Positions 6,035 through 15,492 of a stretch of 64,000 bases of DNA are shown here, in pieces. Each line of letters starts with the position of its first letter. The stretch's first letter is position 1. The stretch is from an uncultured Roseovarius sp. (GTDB taxonomy: Bacteria; Pseudomonadota; Alphaproteobacteria; Rhodobacterales; Rhodobacteraceae). The notes below the pieces were generated by a model that saw only the letters and a program-made list of their open reading frames with translations, made no database searches and was not told the DNA's origin. Both the position numbers and the translations under genes were made by a program. The stretch spans positions 1 to 64,000 of the forward strand of contig NZ_CAJXNN010000001.1 in the NCBI RefSeq assembly GCF_913057115.1, in the 5' to 3' direction.

Positions 6035-8284
6035 CTAATGCTGTGTTTCGCCCTTTTCGACGGTGAAGAAGAAATCCTCTTCCGGGTCGCGGGCCAGCAC
6101 CTCGTCGGGCACACATTCGGGGCCGGACAAAAAGACGTTGGAGCCGAAATGCACATGCATATGCGCCAGCTTGCGCATCCGCTGCCCATTCAGCTCGGCA
6201 AAGAAGTTCGAATAGTTCTCGGTCGCGCGTAGCTCATCAATCTTGGCGCGGTGCATTTTCACGCAGTGGGCGTGCATCGCGGCAATTTCGGGGTCGGCCA
6301 TGAATTTGGCCAGCTCTTCTTCGACCCGAGGGATCATCCGTTGGATCGAGGTGTCTTCCTCGGCGTTGTTGTTCATGCGGAACCAGTAGGCGAGGCCTTG
6401 GTCGCGGTCGACGTGGTTCACCCGGCCCCGGTCGCGTTTCACAAGGAAACTTTCGGCAGAGCGCACGGCGTAATGGTTCAGCTGCACCAAGTCATAACCG
6501 TAGGTCGTGACCGTTGAACGCCAGCCGTTGCGATACATGGATTCCGGCAGCGGGATGCCCGAGCCGTTGACCCACATGATTTCATCCACCAGTTGCGGGT
6601 TGAGGCCCTTGGGCCGGTGCACCCCCAGTTTCTTGAAGATGCCGATGTTCTGAAACAGGGTCTTGAATCCCCAAGCCTGATGCGGCTTGCGGGCATATTC
6701 GGGCGCGCAGCGGGTGAATTGCCGGATGATCAGGTCATCGTGGAAATCGGCGATATCGGCATTGCCGAAAAGCCGCCAAGTCATGGCGATCATGTTGGCA
6801 TCGGGGACGGCCTCGAAGAGATCATCGAGCGTGCCATCGCCCACTTTGATGTTGATGAACTCGTCCACGTCGATGCAGGTGGCCCATTTGGCATCCTTGA
6901 TCAACGGCTCATCGCCCGCGGCGGCAAGGGCGGCGTGCTGCGGTTTGAGGTTCATTTCGCGAAACGGGTTGTCGCGGTGTTGGATGTATCCCTTGGCCTG
7001 CAAGAGATCGAACATATCGTCGGTGCCGTCGCTACAATCGTTGGTGTAGATCAGGAAATCGTCAAATCCGATGGCGCGGTGATAGGCCAGCCATTCAAGG
7101 ATGAAGGGACCTTCGTTTTTCATCGTGGTAACGATGGCGCGGCGGCCCCGGCCCTTGTGCACCTTTTTGGGCGCGACATCGGGCACGCGGACGGGTTTGT
7201 GGCCGAAAGTCTTTTTTGACAGCTTCAGCAGGCGGTCATCTTCGATCAGCGCGGTTTTCGGCACGATGAGCGAGACCGCATCGGCCGGGTGGCGCAGATT
7301 CATGAAGCGGTAAGAGCGGCCCGGTTTGGTCAGGTCAGGTTCGGCGTTGCCGATACGGGTCAGCCGCCAGATGGCTTTTTCAGGCGCCTTGGCCGGGGCG
7401 ATGCACCAACGGGTCTTGGGTTTGCCCGCGTCGAATTGCACGCAGATATGATCGGCGAATTGAATCGGGTCATTGTTGCGGACGCGCCATGGGTAACAGG
7501 TTTGCCCCAGAAGCTGGATCACCCCGCCATTGGCGGCAACGGCACGGTCAAAGATCGTATCGTCGCCATCATCGATGATCAGGTCGTGAACCTCGATATT
7601 GGCCACGGCGCGCGCCTCGGCCAAGAACCGGTCGCGCATGACCTCATAGCAATGCAGCGCGCCGATGGGCGAGGACCATGGTGCCGGCGGTGGAACTTCC
7701 ATGCGATCCTTGCCCGGGGCGGCGGGAGCGCAGAAGGGGTGCGCCTCGGCGGGAAGGTCCTGTTTGCCCAAGGGGTGGTGAGACCGCAGGACGGTAACCT
7801 GCATGGGCCGCTCCATGGCCACGACGCCTTGGGTCAGGGCCGCGTCAAAGTCGGGGCGCTCGCCGGGGCGGGCCCGGTCGAGGATGACGGCGGCGTTCAT
7901 GCCGTGGTGGTCTGCGTTGAAGGCCAGCCATTGCAGGATGGTGTCGGCGTCCTCGCCATTGGAAAGGGCGGCGGCGGCATCGAGCCCCTCGAAGTCATGC
8001 AATTCGGGGGCCGAGGGCGTCACCTCGACCTTGGCACCGTCGAAGGAGAGGGCGAAAGCCCCCTTGCGTGTCAATGAAAGGCGCACCACCGGCGCACCGC
8101 CGATGGTGAAGATTGACAGGACTTCGGCCCGTTTCGGGAAGCCTATCTGCTTGGGGTCGGTGCCGGGTTGGAAATAGAGGGTGGCCACCTGCCCGCCTTC
8201 GGCGTCATGCGCCACGGCCTCCAACAGGGTGATGCCATTGGCCGTGGCCCCGGCCATTTCGCGAAAGTGTACCTGCCCTGCCAT
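6035..8284 (-). CDS. Two-part GT2-like glycosyltransferase with unknown N-terminal region
   Basis: 749 residues. From about residue 383 it carries a glycosyltransferase domain of the Glyco_tranf_2_4 type ('VTTMKNEGPFILEWLAYH', acidic motif 'CIDVDEF', later 'GVHRPKG' and 'LNHYAVRS'), shared with the two upstream neighbours. The first ~370 residues do not resemble a family I know and may be a second, degenerate carbohydrate-related domain. It starts 8 nt after its upstream neighbour stops, so they are one transcription unit. Probably makes or decorates a surface glycan; donor and acceptor unknown. Confidence 0.75.
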   Translation of the reverse strand: MAGQVHFREMAGATANGITLLEAVAHDAEGGQVATLYFQPGTDPKQIGFPKRAEVLSIFTIGGAPVVRLSLTRKGAFALSFDGAKVEVTPSAPELHDFEGLDAAAALSNGEDADTILQWLAFNADHHGMNAAVILDRARPGERPDFDAALTQGVVAMERPMQVTVLRSHHPLGKQDLPAEAHPFCAPAAPGKDRMEVPPPAPWSSPIGALHCYEVMRDRFLAEARAVANIEVHDLIIDDGDDTIFDRAVAANGGVIQLLGQTCYPWRVRNNDPIQFADHICVQFDAGKPKTRWCIAPAKAPEKAIWRLTRIGNAEPDLTKPGRSYRFMNLRHPADAVSLIVPKTALIEDDRLLKLSKKTFGHKPVRVPDVAPKKVHKGRGRRAIVTTMKNEGPFILEWLAYHRAIGFDDFLIYTNDCSDGTDDMFDLLQAKGYIQHRDNPFREMNLKPQHAALAAAGDEPLIKDAKWATCIDVDEFINIKVGDGTLDDLFEAVPDANMIAMTWRLFGNADIADFHDDLIIRQFTRCAPEYARKPHQAWGFKTLFQNIGIFKKLGVHRPKGLNPQLVDEIMWVNGSGIPLPESMYRNGWRSTVTTYGYDLVQLNHYAVRSAESFLVKRDRGRVNHVDRDQGLAYWFRMNNNAEEDTSIQRMIPRVEEELAKFMADPEIAAMHAHCVKMHRAKIDELRATENYSNFFAELNGQRMRKLAHMHVHFGSNVFLSGPECVPDEVLARDPEEDFFFTVEKGETQH

Positions 8285-8292
8285 CTGCCCGG

Positions 8293-9342
8293 TCAGCCCT
8301 TGTTGCCCCGTGCCGCCGCCATGCTGCGCAGGTAACTGCGCAGCGCCTCCGGGCTGGGTGGGGTGCTGTTGATTGTCAGGCCCAATTGCCAGTGAAAGCG
8401 GGTTTCTTCAACATCCTGCATGATGTCGGCCAAGCGGCGTTGATGCGCGGCCACGGTGGCCTCGTGGCAGGCGCGGACATCCGGCAGGGTCATCAGGTCT
8501 TCCAGCATGGCACGGGTGGCGGGCAGCATGGCGTCGATGCGGGTTTCCTCGACCGTGTTCCAGTTCCTTTCCACCCAGTAGCCCACGTCGATGGGTTTTT
8601 GCATGTGATTGGGCAGGCCGCGGTGGCGCTTGACCATGAATTCATCGCGCGAGCGCAGGGAATAATGGTTCAACTCGGCCAAAGGGGCATGGGCCTTCGC
8701 GTGGTTGTAAAGCGTGATCATCTCGTCGTTTTGTACGAAGCTGTCGGGCAGGCGCTCGCCCCAGGCACTGAGCCAGACCGCATCGCGGCGCGGTTTGCGG
8801 CGGGGCCGGTGGACCCCGAGTTTCTGGAAGGCCTTGGGGCGCATCAGCGATTTGAAAAGATGCGCCATGGGAAATTGCAAATCGCGGGGGGCGGCGCGGC
8901 GGAACCGTTCAGGCGTGAGGGCCGGATCATAGCCTGCCTGCCCGTCCGAGCCGAAAAGCCGCCACGGGATGGCCACGGCATCGGCCTTGCCGCCCTGCCC
9001 TTGCACTTGCTCCATGACCCCCGGAAGGTCGCCAAAGGCGGGATCGAGTGACAGGAATTCATCACAGTCGAAGACCATGACCCAATCGGCCCCGGCCACG
9101 AGCGGATGATCGCCCGCCAGCCTGAGCGCCTGCCATTGCACGGATTTGCGCCCCTTCGGCGCAAAGCGCAGATGGGTCACACGCCCCGAGGCCTGCAAGG
9201 CATCCAAAAGCGCATCGCTGCCATCGGTGCAATCGTGGGTGAGCACGAGAATATGATCCAACCCCGCCGCCAGATGATGCGCCACCCATTCCACCGCATA
9301 GGGGCCGTCATCGCGTAAACATGTGACACCCAGAACTGTCAT
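8293..9342 (-). CDS. GT2-like glycosyltransferase (Glyco_tranf_2_4 type)
   Basis: 349 residues. The N-terminal start 'VTCLRDDGPYAVEWVAHH' is the hallmark of this family, followed by 'LVLTHDCTDGSDALLDAL', the nucleotide-sugar and metal binding motif 'FDCDEF' near residue 92, and the conserved 'GVHRPR' and 'LNHYSLRSRDEF'. No signal peptide or membrane segment, so a cytoplasmic transferase. It is the first gene of a two-gene unit with the 749-residue transferase. Confidence 0.85.
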   Translation of the reverse strand: MTVLGVTCLRDDGPYAVEWVAHHLAAGLDHILVLTHDCTDGSDALLDALQASGRVTHLRFAPKGRKSVQWQALRLAGDHPLVAGADWVMVFDCDEFLSLDPAFGDLPGVMEQVQGQGGKADAVAIPWRLFGSDGQAGYDPALTPERFRRAAPRDLQFPMAHLFKSLMRPKAFQKLGVHRPRRKPRRDAVWLSAWGERLPDSFVQNDEMITLYNHAKAHAPLAELNHYSLRSRDEFMVKRHRGLPNHMQKPIDVGYWVERNWNTVEETRIDAMLPATRAMLEDLMTLPDVRACHEATVAAHQRRLADIMQDVEETRFHWQLGLTINSTPPSPEALRSYLRSMAAARGNKG

Positions 9343-9698: not shown

Positions 9699-10706
9699 TT
9701 ACGCCGATTTCGCCAGTTGCACGGCCGGAACGCCCTGTTCGAGGCTGGCGCGCAGGGCATTTGTCAGTTCGTCGAGTTCGGGGTCCATCAGGATCGACGC
9801 GGCCTTGCGCTGGTGCCATTCGACGGCCCTCTGATGCAACTCGCCAAGCACCGGGTCGGATTTCAGGTCAGCGGCGAGTTTTTCGCTGGCGCTTTGGTAA
9901 CGTTCGATGGAGGTGTCTTTTTCATCGTTCAAATTGAACCTGTCCCAATAGTCCATGCCCAGCACATGGTGGGAATGGTTGGCCCGGCCACGGGCGCGTT
10001 TGACAAGGTAGCTTTCCATCGAGCGCAGCGCATAGTGGTTGACCTGTGCGCCAGTGAAAAGCGGAGGGTTGTCGGTGCGTTCACCGTTTACGATATAGTC
10101 ATCGCCGCCCGGCAGGACGCGTTTTGTGGTTTCGATATGGTCCTCGAGGGACACCGGCGCATGCAATCCCATGCGCTGGAACTTGTGTTGATTGGTATAA
10201 AGGGATTTTACGAATTTGCCGGTCTTGGGGCGCTCCTCGGCGTCCCATTCAAATTCTCCCATGGTGAATTGTCGGGTCACTGGCGTATCGGTGAATTTCT
10301 CGATTCCGTCAGGGCCGAAAATGCGCCACGGCACCGAGATCACATCGGCATCCGCACCGGAGCCTTCGACAAGCGCCTGAACCGATCCGTCACCCATATG
10401 GATGTTGAGGTATTCGTCCACATCACAGACAAAGACCCATTTCGCGTCCATCACGATGTCATAGCGCCGGGAGGCCTGTCTCAGGGCAGAGCGGTGAATG
10501 CCGCCCCCACGGACAATCGTATTGTGCTGAGTGACAAGCCCCAATTCCTGCAATCTCAGAAGGATTTCGACCGTGGGATCGGTGCAGTCGTTGGTGCAGA
10601 CCAGAATATGGTCGAACCCAAGGGTTTTATAATGAGCCACCCAATCAATGATATAGGGGCCTTCGTTCTTCATCGTTGATACAACGGTATAGGTCTCTTT
10701 ATCCAT
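9699..10706 (-). CDS. GT2-like glycosyltransferase (Glyco_tranf_2_4 type)
   Basis: 335 residues, clearly paralogous to the two transferases downstream: N-terminal 'VVSTMKNEGPYIIDWVAHYK', then 'LVCTNDCTDPT', the acidic motif 'CDVDEYLNIHMGDG' near residue 93, 'GLHAPVS' and 'VNHYALRSMESYLVKRARGR'. A cytoplasmic enzyme predicted to add a sugar to a surface glycan or lipid carrier. 114 bp separate it from the upstream fusion gene, on the same strand. Confidence 0.87.
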   Translation of the reverse strand: MDKETYTVVSTMKNEGPYIIDWVAHYKTLGFDHILVCTNDCTDPTVEILLRLQELGLVTQHNTIVRGGGIHRSALRQASRRYDIVMDAKWVFVCDVDEYLNIHMGDGSVQALVEGSGADADVISVPWRIFGPDGIEKFTDTPVTRQFTMGEFEWDAEERPKTGKFVKSLYTNQHKFQRMGLHAPVSLEDHIETTKRVLPGGDDYIVNGERTDNPPLFTGAQVNHYALRSMESYLVKRARGRANHSHHVLGMDYWDRFNLNDEKDTSIERYQSASEKLAADLKSDPVLGELHQRAVEWHQRKAASILMDPELDELTNALRASLEQGVPAVQLAKSA

Positions 10707-10820: not shown

Positions 10821-13034
10821 CTACTTGTTTTGCAAGGCTTGCAGACCAAGGCGGACCTTGCGGTTGTCATTATGGGCGAGGATGTATTCGCCCAGACGTT
10901 TGGCGAGTTGGGTATGATCCTTGTCCACGGCACGCGAAAAAAGCTCGCGTTGGTACCGCGGGAAGGTCTTACGGGTGCGCAGCATCTGGTAGTAGTCCTG
11001 CGAGGTCAGTGTGCCTGACAGCGCCCCAAGGATGATGGGAGTAAGGATTCCCATCTGGTTGAGAGAAGAGCCAAGCCGATGCCCCAGAAGCGGTGCGCGC
11101 AGGCGTTCGACATTGTCATGCTCGAACCGCGCGACATGGCCGGAATCCAACGGCTCGTAGGGATCATAGAGGATGTAGACCTTGTTGGCGGCAGCGGAGG
11201 CTTGCGCGGCATCGCCATAGGGGCCGGTAAAGTCGCGATCCCATGCCACCTTGTAGCGGGTCTCCCAAGGCACGATGGATTTATCCAGCGTGGTTTGCGG
11301 ACTGATGGCCACCACATCCGCCCCCGGCGCGGCGGCGGAAAAGGCGCAGGCCGCATAGCCGCCCATGGACGCGCCGTAAAACACCACCCGTTTGAAGCGG
11401 TTGAAAAAGCCGCTGTCGCGTAACTCATCAAATTGTTCGGAGACCCAAGGATTGCGATACCACGTCCAGCCGCCGGCCAGCACGCCCAGCATCGACCACC
11501 CCTGTTCCTTGATAAAAGAATAGCCCCAGGGCCGCCTGTCATCGCGTTTGTTCATGGTGATATCGAGGTTATCGAAAGTCACCACAAGCGTGTCGTCGCT
11601 ACGCGGCATGAACAGGAAAGAATGGCCTTCGGGACCGGGGCGATAGAACCCGTCGTCGCCCGCAAGCCGAGTGGCGATGTCATCCCACGCGGCATCATCG
11701 CCGCCTTCGGGCGGTTTGGGGGTGACCATGACACGGATGACGGGTTTGCCGTCTTCTTCGCGCGTCGAAAGCTGTTCGTTGGTCCCGTAGTTCTTCAGGA
11801 GGGGAAAACCGCCCGAGCCTTTCTTGATGTCCATGAACACCCGGCTGTCGGAATGCAGGCAGCGGTCGTAAATCCTGTTCAACCGGCGGATGCGATAGTT
11901 GCAGCCAAACCCATCGAGATTGCACAGCACATCCACCGGGCGCAGGTCTTTTTCGTTTCGGATCACGCGAATGCGGTCGGACTCAACCCCGTTGCTTTGA
12001 AGAAAGGCACAGTAATCGGCGATCCAAGGCTGCGGGTCGTTGCCGAATTCGCCGGACCTGTCCACGTCAAACAGTTGAACGTCACAGTCGTGTTGGTGGT
12101 GCAGGGACAGAATGAAACTGCCCGCCGCCCCGGTCATGTCGGCGACGGTGGTCACTTCATCCAGATCAAGGTGATCGACCAGCGCACCATCGAACGTCGC
12201 ATTGCCACGGCCCTTGATCGGCGCAAGCGCGGGTTCGATGCCGTGCTCTTGCACCAGCTTGTCAAGGTACGACCCTTGCGGCGCCAACCCGTGATGCTTG
12301 TTTCCAAGCTGCTTCTTGTTCGAGGCCCAAAGGTGCAGGGCGGTGGTTTCATCGGTGATCAGCCCCTCGGCGATCGACGCACGGCGCAGGAATTTCGTTC
12401 GATCCCGGAAGGTGATGGGATAGAAGGCATCAAGCGGCTGCACCTTATCCTCAAGCCCCAGCGCATGGGCATAGTGGGTCACCATCATCGGCCCCCAGAC
12501 GCCCCAAGGCTGCCCGGTGATATGGACGGGCTTGCCGGCCTTGGCCTTTCTCTCGAATTCCTTTTGCTTCGATTTCGGCAGGAAGGGCGCGATGGAGTAG
12601 CGATCGGAGGTGAAATCCAGCATTTGCGAGAGCATCTCGCTGTCATGTGGCAGGCCGAGCACGGCGTTGTTGACGCGATGTTCGCCCGGCAGTTCGTAGC
12701 CCATGACATAGTCGCTGTCATAGTCCATGGGCCGGTGGCAATAGACATCGGTATCGATCCAGATCATGCCGGGGCATTGGTGGATCATGTGCAGGCGGAA
12801 CCAATCGGCAAAGAGCGCGAAACTGTTCTTTTGCTCGTACTTGATGAAATCGTCGGTATCTATGATCTCGCGCCCGTCGCGGCGGATCACGCCTTCGGGG
12901 ACATTGGGGATGTCCTCATAGCTGAACAGGGTGATCTTTTGGCCCTTGTCGACAAAGGATTTCAGGCAAAGCTGTTCCAGCCAACTGAGTGGACCGCCGA
13001 TCCAAAGGGTACCTACCTCACGCTCTCGCGCCAT
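10821..13034 (-). CDS. Three-domain protein: sugar transferase, Rossmann (methyltransferase-like), alpha/beta hydrolase
   Basis: 737 residues in apparently three parts. Residues 1-260 resemble DXD-containing glycosyltransferases of the Gly_transf_sug group ('IGGPLSWLEQLCLKSF', 'MIWIDTDVYCHRP'). Residues about 290-420 look like a Rossmann domain related to SAM-dependent methyltransferases ('VADMTGAAGSFILSL', 'DVQLFDVDRSGEF'). The C-terminal third has an alpha/beta-hydrolase nucleophile elbow, 'VVFYGASMGGYAACAF' (about residue 555), with a plausible acid ('YDPYEPLD') and histidine ('LLGHRLGSS'). It starts the glycan locus; substrates unknown. Domain boundaries are my estimate. Confidence 0.7.
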   Translation of the reverse strand: MAREREVGTLWIGGPLSWLEQLCLKSFVDKGQKITLFSYEDIPNVPEGVIRRDGREIIDTDDFIKYEQKNSFALFADWFRLHMIHQCPGMIWIDTDVYCHRPMDYDSDYVMGYELPGEHRVNNAVLGLPHDSEMLSQMLDFTSDRYSIAPFLPKSKQKEFERKAKAGKPVHITGQPWGVWGPMMVTHYAHALGLEDKVQPLDAFYPITFRDRTKFLRRASIAEGLITDETTALHLWASNKKQLGNKHHGLAPQGSYLDKLVQEHGIEPALAPIKGRGNATFDGALVDHLDLDEVTTVADMTGAAGSFILSLHHQHDCDVQLFDVDRSGEFGNDPQPWIADYCAFLQSNGVESDRIRVIRNEKDLRPVDVLCNLDGFGCNYRIRRLNRIYDRCLHSDSRVFMDIKKGSGGFPLLKNYGTNEQLSTREEDGKPVIRVMVTPKPPEGGDDAAWDDIATRLAGDDGFYRPGPEGHSFLFMPRSDDTLVVTFDNLDITMNKRDDRRPWGYSFIKEQGWSMLGVLAGGWTWYRNPWVSEQFDELRDSGFFNRFKRVVFYGASMGGYAACAFSAAAPGADVVAISPQTTLDKSIVPWETRYKVAWDRDFTGPYGDAAQASAAANKVYILYDPYEPLDSGHVARFEHDNVERLRAPLLGHRLGSSLNQMGILTPIILGALSGTLTSQDYYQMLRTRKTFPRYQRELFSRAVDKDHTQLAKRLGEYILAHNDNRKVRLGLQALQNK

Positions 13035-13262: not shown

Positions 13263-13589
13263 TTATCCCGCGCGGTTGCGCTCCAGCTCCGCGCGCAGTT
13301 GCTCGGCCTCGTGGCGGGCTTCGCGAAGGCCGTCCATGGTGGCCGAAAGCTCGGCCTCGGTCTGCGAAATCTGGTTGGTCAGCTCGGCCTCGCGCTGTTG
13401 CAGGTAGGTGATCGCCTGATCGCGGGTTTCTTCGGCCTCGTGCAGTTCCTGCGCCATTTTCTCAAGCTCTTCCACGTCGGAGCCGGATACGCGGATAAAC
13501 CGATGCACGAGCCAGTTCGCAAACCAGCCCATGCAAAAGGCCACGAACAGAACGATGGCCGTGGCGATAATAAATTCAGTTCTGTTCAT
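13263..13589 (-). CDS. Membrane-anchored coiled-coil protein
   Basis: 108 residues: one N-terminal transmembrane helix ('FIIATAIVLFVAFCMGWFANWLV') followed by a long charged heptad-rich region from residue 38 to the end, predicted coiled coil. Its first 14 nt overlap the end of the OmpA-family gene, so it is probably translated from the same transcript. I recognise no named family. It may be a structural partner of the OmpA-like protein. Confidence 0.75.
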   Translation of the reverse strand: MNRTEFIIATAIVLFVAFCMGWFANWLVHRFIRVSGSDVEELEKMAQELHEAEETRDQAITYLQQREAELTNQISQTEAELSATMDGLREARHEAEQLRAELERNRAG

Positions 13590-15492
13590 CTTCGGTGCCT
13601 TCCTGATCCCCGGCTTCGCCTGCCTCGTCTATATTTTCGATAGGTTTCTCAAGGCTTTCAAGGGTTGTTTCCTGTGGCTTGATCGGTTCGGGGCGGATCA
13701 GTTTGAATTCGATCCGGCGGTTGGCCTCACGGCCTTCCTCGGTGCCATTGTCGGCAATCGGGTCGCTTTCGCCATAGCCCTTGGCGGTAAAGGATGAGGT
13801 CAGCACACGCCGCAGGCGCAATTCATTGAGAACCGCGCGCGCCCGCGCTTGGCTCAATCGTTCGTTCATGACTTCGCGGCCCTGGCTGTCGGTGTGACCT
13901 TGGATTTCCATCCGTATCTCGCCACACTCGTTCAGGATGTCGGCGATACGGTCCATGATGGCCGCGCCATTGGCATCGATATTGGCCGAACCCGGCTCGA
14001 AATTGATCTTGTCGTCGGCCTGCACCTCGGCGATGCGCGCCTCGCATTCCTCGGGCGTCGGAATGCTGGCCACCGGATCGAGTTCTTCCTTGTAAGTCAC
14101 GTCGATCGAAAACTGGTTGCGTTCACCCAGCTTGTCCGACAGGAACCCGGCGATCTTTGCCTTGGCGTCCAACTGGCCGGTGTTGCCCGACACCGAAAGC
14201 TCCTCGGGCCGGACGATGACCGCGCCGTTCGACAGGTAAGACAAGGTCTCTAGCCCGGTCAGCACCCGCAGGGACCAGTTGTCGGGCAAGTCCTCGGCCA
14301 CGCGCGCCGTGCTGTGTACCGCGTCCGAGGTGAACCGCGCCTTGGCAAAGCTGTTGACGGTTTCGCGGGTCACTTCGCTATCCACACGACCGCGGATCTG
14401 AACCAGACCCTCGGGCGAAAGCGTCGCCACGAATTCCGGCGTCACCTGCGTGTCATCCTCGGGCTTGGGCAGGACGGCGTGCAATGCGAAGACTTCGGGC
14501 AAAGAGGTCTCAAGCTGCCCCACGATATCGTCGAAAGCCGCCTGCGGCGTGCCTTCGGCGGCGACAAGTGAAATATCCGCATCCGAAAACGTCACACTTC
14601 CGCCGCCCAATTTGCCCAGGGCGGCGATGGATTGTTCCACCGCACGCGCCCATTTGGGCGAGGGGACGCCAAGGCCGATTGTACAGGCTGTCTTTTCTGT
14701 CAGGCCCACCTCGCTCGCCGCGCGCAGAATGCGGTTGCGCGCCTCTTCGGTATCGGCCGAGCAGGCATCGAACCGAGGGGTGCCGCCCTCGATCAGGAAG
14801 CGCAGGGTAAAGGGCGTGATCACCGGACGCGGCGACGAGATATCCAGGCCAAGGCGCACATCATCCGGCACCCGGCGCGCCAGTTCGGTTTCGATACGCC
14901 GCTTGTCTTTTTCAGAATCGGCCATGGCGGTGATCATCACCCGCTCGGCATCGACGGAAATTTTCGCCCGTTGCAACTGCGCCAGGGACCGCACCGCATA
15001 ATCCAGAGCCGCTTGCCATGTTTCAGGCTGCGGGTAATCAGCGGCTTCCAACAGGTCGATCACCTCGCCTTCGTCGGTCTGCTCGGCAATCCCGGCAACA
15101 AGGTCTTCCCGGTCGGTGTTGGCCGGAACAAGACCGATAAGCGAAATGCCACTGCCGTTGCGCAGCATCTCGACGGAAAACCGTGGCGGCGCGATTTTGC
15201 TGGTATCTTCGACGAGCATTTGGTCGATCACCCGGGCCGCGTCGACGACCTTGCCCGCCACTGTCAAGGCCTTGAAACGCAGGGCTTCACTGGGCGCGGT
15301 TCCTGCAAGAAATACCTGCAAACCGTTGGCATCAACCTCGGTCCAGGTCAGGTTTTCACTATCCAACTGCTCAAGCACCGCAGTGCGCGAGCCGTCTTCT
15401 ATGGCCGTGACGGCAAAGCGCGCCGCCAACAAGCACACGACTCCGGCGAAGAAGAACACGGCGACTATGGAAAAGAGTGAAGACAGGCGCAT
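13576..15492 (-). CDS. OmpA-family peptidoglycan-binding envelope protein
   Basis: 638 residues. An N-terminal membrane anchor (residues 7-28) is followed by repeated BON-like stretches, then a C-terminal OmpA/MotB domain with 'INFEPGSANIDANGAAIMDRIADIL' and the peptidoglycan-contacting 'IQGHTDSQGREVMNERLSQARARAV'. The tail is acidic and disordered. Much larger than a simple OmpA lipoprotein, it likely bridges the inner membrane and the cell wall. It overlaps the small coiled-coil gene downstream. Confidence 0.88.
   Translation of the reverse strand: MRLSSLFSIVAVFFFAGVVCLLAARFAVTAIEDGSRTAVLEQLDSENLTWTEVDANGLQVFLAGTAPSEALRFKALTVAGKVVDAARVIDQMLVEDTSKIAPPRFSVEMLRNGSGISLIGLVPANTDREDLVAGIAEQTDEGEVIDLLEAADYPQPETWQAALDYAVRSLAQLQRAKISVDAERVMITAMADSEKDKRRIETELARRVPDDVRLGLDISSPRPVITPFTLRFLIEGGTPRFDACSADTEEARNRILRAASEVGLTEKTACTIGLGVPSPKWARAVEQSIAALGKLGGGSVTFSDADISLVAAEGTPQAAFDDIVGQLETSLPEVFALHAVLPKPEDDTQVTPEFVATLSPEGLVQIRGRVDSEVTRETVNSFAKARFTSDAVHSTARVAEDLPDNWSLRVLTGLETLSYLSNGAVIVRPEELSVSGNTGQLDAKAKIAGFLSDKLGERNQFSIDVTYKEELDPVASIPTPEECEARIAEVQADDKINFEPGSANIDANGAAIMDRIADILNECGEIRMEIQGHTDSQGREVMNERLSQARARAVLNELRLRRVLTSSFTAKGYGESDPIADNGTEEGREANRRIEFKLIRPEPIKPQETTLESLEKPIENIDEAGEAGDQEGTEDEQN

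Follow-up and report, generated by a model that had tools for sequence, protein, structure and literature searches.

The fusion protein and its locus

The window analyzed here is a stretch of 64,000 nucleotides from an uncultured Roseovarius sp. (positions 1 to 64,000 of contig NZ_CAJXNN010000001.1). A gene in this window encodes a 737-aa protein in which a glycosyltransferase-like domain, a methyltransferase-fold domain, and an alpha/beta-hydrolase-fold domain follow one another from the N-terminus (Table 1). Three glycosyltransferase genes lie directly after the fusion gene in the same direction. The 749-aa neighbor among them has a homolog close to the fusion in 72 of the 80 loci, and its N-terminal region of about 380 residues is conserved with the locus. 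The idea that this region is a degenerate copy of the protein's own glycosyltransferase domain gained no support from a profile comparison. Just upstream of the fusion gene are a small protein with a coiled coil and what appears to be a membrane helix at its N-terminus (13263-13589, minus strand) and a protein of the OmpA family that matches BON weakly (13576-15492, minus strand). Genes for export or capsule assembly were not seen next to the fusion gene.

Table 1. Features of the fusion locus, with positions in the window
Feature	Position	Strand	Basis
Neighbor, N-terminal 380 aa without Pfam match + Glyco_tranf_2_4 (749 aa)	6035..8284	-	Pfam 1e-18
Glyco_tranf_2_4 glycosyltransferase	8293..9342	-	Pfam 2.6e-17
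Glyco_tranf_2_4 glycosyltransferase	9699..10706	-	Pfam 2.6e-22
Three-domain protein (737 aa)	10821..13034	-	ORF, about 76 co-linear relatives, AlphaFold model
GT-A glycosyltransferase domain (predicted), GT32/GT8-like, residues 1-275	12210..13034	-	Fold model, Foldseek, profile match
DxD motif DTD, residues 94-96	12747..12755	-	Both Asp in 81/81 diverse copies
Class I methyltransferase-fold domain, probably degenerate, residues 284-440	11715..12185	-	Secondary structure, Foldseek, conservation
Degraded SAM motif I, ADMTGAAG, residues 298-305	12120..12143	-	Compared with DIGCG in stand-alone homologs
Alpha/beta-hydrolase-fold domain, probable O-acyltransferase or esterase, residues 446-735	10830..11699	-	Foldseek, model
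Ser556, putative nucleophile	11367..11369	-	In 81/113 diverse domains, always with His652
Asp624, putative triad acid (Asp630 equally conserved)	11163..11165	-	In 112/113 diverse domains
His652, putative base	11079..11081	-	In 81/113; absent exactly where Ser556 is absent

A scan in which each species was represented by a single genome yielded 85 relatives, of which 80 were kept, all of the Rhodobacteraceae type. About 76 of these 80 are co-linear with the window copy along practically its full length, with 58-92% identity; among the remaining relatives, three (L042, L074, and L080) are cut by contig ends and one (L079) is divided into two genes. The existence of the co-linear relatives, together with pN/pS values of 0.08-0.51 (for each domain in each pair tested) and the pLDDT values of the AlphaFold model (mean of 83 for the entire chain), indicates that the ORF is more than a chance occurrence. 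The 737-aa fusion is a real protein, conserved in marine-type bacteria.

Pfam gave sub-threshold matches only (Gb3_synth at residues 197-242 and Esterase at residues 529-601), and no NCBIfam model matched the chain. A search of solved structures by sequence, using the family profile, found none, and no relative was found in the viral contigs searched. PADLOC gave no match, ruling out a known defence gene. The sequence-only reading had located the ORF exactly and had proposed the three domains in this order, and the predicted fold of each third agrees with it (AlphaFold, Foldseek, and profile match). The motifs on which it relied are all present (DTD, VADMTGAAGSF at residues 297-307, and Ser556/Asp624/His652), and its remark that no enzyme with such an order is known to have been described is in line with the lack of an above-cutoff Pfam match or an NCBIfam model for the chain.

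N-terminal transferase domain

AlphaFold prediction of residues 1-275 (45 copies) gave a pLDDT of 95.6 and a pTM of 0.92, and the model together with the Foldseek search revealed a GT-A fold in this region. The best Foldseek matches, with E about 1e-6, were to the glycosyltransferase domain of SetA and to glycogenin, and a sequence profile also matched SetA (E 1.1e-6). The Gb3_synth score of the window copy (17.3 bits) is below the Pfam cutoff of 22.3 bits, and that of one relative's copy (34.1 bits) is above it. By family resemblance, residues 1-275 are predicted to be a GT-A transferase of the retaining type.

Middle domain

Residues 284-440 show an alternation of strands and helices that ends in a long beta6-beta7 hairpin, mostly with pLDDT values of 86-95 in the AlphaFold model. 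This hairpin is a typical feature of class I methyltransferases. DnrK-type methyltransferases were among the top Foldseek matches of the full-length model, and they were assigned to residues 284-440 by fold logic, the Foldseek output being without the matched query residues.

The SAM-binding region is altered in the fused proteins. In all ten stand-alone homologs of the diverse set, motif I is DIGCG, and the beta4 loop is SCGFHYP or close to it. The corresponding segment of the window copy is DMTGA rather than the glycine-rich DxGxG. Among 69 fused copies, motif I takes the form D-(L/I/V)-(G/T/S)-G-(T/N/A/G), with its glycines mostly replaced (T301 in the window copy; T, N, or A at position 303), NLxGFGD stands in the place of the SCGFHYP-like loop, and the beta2 acidic residue is often Asn. 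The middle domain is also by far the least constrained part of the chain: in an alignment of 34 relatives (A1), only 7 of its 157 columns are invariant (4%), compared to 97/275 (35%) in the transferase domain and 104/290 (36%) in the hydrolase-fold domain, and its dN is 1.4-3.5 times that of the flanking domains in eight pairs. Asp299, Gly302, Gly377, and a DIRKGSG loop are nearly invariant in the fused copies, and thus the domain is not simply decaying.

The sequence-only reading had suggested that one polypeptide might transfer a sugar, methylate, and acylate or deacylate the same glycan. The methyltransferase fold predicted with high confidence and the near invariance of Asp299, Gly302, and the DIRKGSG loop agree with such a trifunctional enzyme. 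In several relatives an intact stand-alone methyltransferase copy is located in the neighborhood of the fusion, so the pathway may include methylation; an intact copy adjoins a middle-plus-hydrolase gene in L117, L118, and L120, the L118 copy being joined to the transferase in a fusion. The genome of the window contains only the fused copy, with no intact stand-alone homolog at E<=0.001. On the other hand, the replacement of the motif I glycines in most fused copies, the frequent Asn in beta2, the loss of the SCGFHYP-like loop, and a constraint weaker than in either other domain argue against a third activity, which we consider unlikely. The middle domain is probably a methyltransferase descendant that has lost SAM-dependent catalysis, and from its sequence we infer that it would not methylate. 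Both the middle and the last part are predicted to have the folds foreseen by the sequence-only reading and the putative triad is present, while the SAM motif is replaced; with the transferase and hydrolase-fold residues conserved, two of the three activities seem likely, and methylation is open to doubt.

C-terminal hydrolase-fold domain

The Foldseek matches listed for the full model include many esterases and lipases, CsaC, and chain B of Gap123. Among these, CsaC had the highest target-normalized TM-score (0.54), with many plain esterases close to it. In the model, the sequence GASMG, which conforms to the nucleophile elbow GxSxG, links strand 549-555 to helix 557-568. Asp624 comes directly after strand 618-623, and the helix that succeeds strand 642-646 starts at His652. 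The putative Ser-Asp-His triad is therefore at the canonical places in the predicted structure, and its three residues are invariant in A1.

A set of 113 diverse domains provided insight into the relation between the two residues other than Asp. Ser and His are both present in 81 domains and both absent in 32, and no domain has one alone, although the domains are related and the pairing does not represent 113 independent events; nearly all of the domains retain Asp624 and Asp630. The joint presence or absence of Ser556 and His652 in 113/113 domains supports their role as catalytic partners where they are present.

In the tree, the proteins lacking Ser form one clade of 31 rows (SH-aLRT 100), to which one long-branched row is to be added. 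The clade includes a paralog from the window's own genome with the motif GAGAAG (L082:1471-2433, contig C11). Related rows lacking Ser and His occur in L044-L076, L085, L086, and L098, and the clade keeps both Asp. These paralogs are apparent pseudoenzymes conserved in many Rhodobacteraceae. A 721-aa protein (L142:6554-8716, plus strand) has a hydrolase-like domain without Ser and His and, after it, a long tail that matches SWM_repeat weakly.

The maintenance of this large related clade after the loss of Ser and His implies that non-catalytic roles exist in the wider family, and the C-terminal domain of the fusion might likewise be mainly a glycan-binding or scaffold module in a protein that is only a glycosyltransferase. 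This seems very improbable, however, given that Ser and His are both kept in all 70 copies fused to the transferase or the middle domain.

If the domain is catalytic, it might remove acyl groups, in an editing or deacetylating role, rather than add them. Most of the structural matches are esterases and lipases, the sub-threshold Pfam match is Esterase, and the Ser-His-Asp chemistry is alike in both directions. In contrast, the best target-normalized score among the matches listed belongs to CsaC, the glycosylation-associated Gap123 chain is listed as well, and the fusion to a biosynthetic transferase, or in one relative to a sulfotransferase, fits the addition of a group better. We regard a glycosyltransferase fused to an esterase as the less probable reading, and favor an O-acyltransferase.

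Fusion, splitting, and reshuffling in relatives

The sequence-only reading had raised the question of whether the fusion is conserved or split into separate genes, and both situations occur. Conservation holds for the co-linear relatives described above; the fusion is not universal, since the transferase is a separate gene in many relatives. In Paracoccus L079, two overlapping genes encode a transferase of 346 aa and a middle-plus-hydrolase protein of 465 aa. A family survey of 249 genomes identified, among the annotated loci, about 14 single-chain fusions, 8 loci with a separate transferase, and 1 ambiguous locus (L109). Fused and split forms are mixed in one clade of the tree (SH-aLRT 95), and the starred branches force at least four changes per label, a number that contig ends and assembly errors may inflate.

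Domain combinations were described by HMMs built in this analysis and labeled GTX, ROS, HYD, GT2, and N749. In the tree, the label ROS+HYD for L074 is due solely to a contig that begins inside the gene. In L122, the transferase is fused directly to the hydrolase-fold domain without the middle domain (612 aa). Other relatives have GTX+GT2+HYD, GTX+GT2+GT2, and GTX+GTX+GT2+HYD chains of about 1046-1514 aa. Giant relatives (1055-1514 aa) are L128:3096-7637 (minus strand), L129:2835-7085 (plus), L131:3060-6260 (plus), and L138:1749-4913 (minus); they contain one or two GT32/GT8-like domains and GT2-type domains, with a hydrolase-fold domain in three of the four. On plasmid p4 of Paracoccus albus, a hydrolase-fold domain is fused to a sulfotransferase (PF13469; L145:9962-11602, plus strand), and this gene adjoins those for UDP-galactopyranose mutase and for glycosyltransferases.

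Proposed function

Plasmid relatives of the fusion are found among glycosyltransferase, methyltransferase, sugar-nucleotide, or sulfation genes. The glycosyltransferase neighbors in the window and the location of these relatives in glycan loci led us to suppose that the protein has a role in a surface glycan, to which the neighborhood points. It was not established that the Phaeobacter plasmid relatives are on the known biofilm/rhamnose plasmid. A link to the RcGTA capsule genes rcc01081-01086 was also considered, and the paper concerned gives no sequence link.

We propose, with a probability of about one half, that the protein is a bifunctional glycosyltransferase/O-acyltransferase whose two parts are linked by a pseudo-methyltransferase and which belongs to a surface-glycan locus of Rhodobacteraceae, a reading that draws on sequence and models. 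The GT32/GT8-like domain would use a nucleotide sugar as donor and transfer its sugar in a retaining, DxD- and metal-dependent reaction. The role envisaged for the C-terminal domain is O-acylation, most likely acetylation, of the same glycan by way of an acyl-Ser556 assisted by His652 and Asp624, in a manner similar to CsaC, and the middle domain would serve as a linker or recognition module. That both activities exist, that acylation prevails over deacylation, and that the substrate is shared are what we infer from conservation, the models, and analogy; action on the same glycan is plausible because of the fusion and the neighborhood. We further speculate, as a rather unlikely extension, that the middle domain has been repurposed, its NLxGFGD and DIRKGSG loops forming a new site for a nucleotide sugar, an acyl donor, or the glycan between the transferase and the acyltransferase, and that the protein belongs to a mix-and-match kit for glycan assembly, as one of the units that Rhodobacteraceae freely fuse and split.

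The relatives constitute a natural series within one bacterial family in which glycan-building domains are fused, split, and reshuffled, with two apparent losses of catalysis, in the middle domain and in the clade of hydrolase-fold proteins without Ser and His. The proposal also suggests, for a conserved protein outside the NCBIfam and above-cutoff Pfam models, a function that can be tested, namely the coupling of glycan O-acylation to sugar transfer.

Comparison with known systems

Capsule polymerases with multiple domains, for example Bcs3 of Haemophilus influenzae b, have several glycan-building activities per chain. Polymerases of the Bcs3 type carry domains other than those of the 737-aa protein, and the two are likened by description only. 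Multi-domain glycan enzymes are thus a known kind, and it is the combination of domains that appears to be new: a limited search of the open-access literature found no description of the transferase-middle-hydrolase architecture, which does not prove its absence.

The SetA glycosyltransferase domain, glycogenin, and Gb3_synth (PF04572) have the fold and the DxD motif in common with residues 1-275. Unlike in these proteins, the transferase here is the N-terminal part of a fusion, and the window copy scores below the Pfam cutoff. The middle domain is homologous to the stand-alone DIGCGY proteins and shares its fold and strand order with these and other class I SAM methyltransferases such as DnrK; it differs from them in the replaced motif I and beta4 loop and in a shorter beta2-alphaB region.

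The closest analogies for the C-terminal domain are two glycan-modifying proteins. Asp2/Gap2 of the accessory Sec system (PDB 6oyc chain B), listed by Foldseek, has a predicted Ser-Asp-His triad but belongs to an adhesin export complex, and it superposes poorly on the full model (rmsd 16.5), which means that only part of the chain can correspond. CsaC, the capsule O-acetyltransferase of Neisseria meningitidis serogroup A (PDB 6yuo), has the same alpha/beta-hydrolase fold and a Ser-His-Asp triad but is a stand-alone enzyme, similar to the C-terminal domain at the fold level only (12% identity). CsaC O-acetylates the capsule with its Ser-His-Asp triad (PMC7501274), and Asp2, with a predicted Ser-Asp-His triad, O-acetylates the glycan on GspB (PMC5578698); a triad of this type in glycan enzymes can thus bring about O-acetylation.
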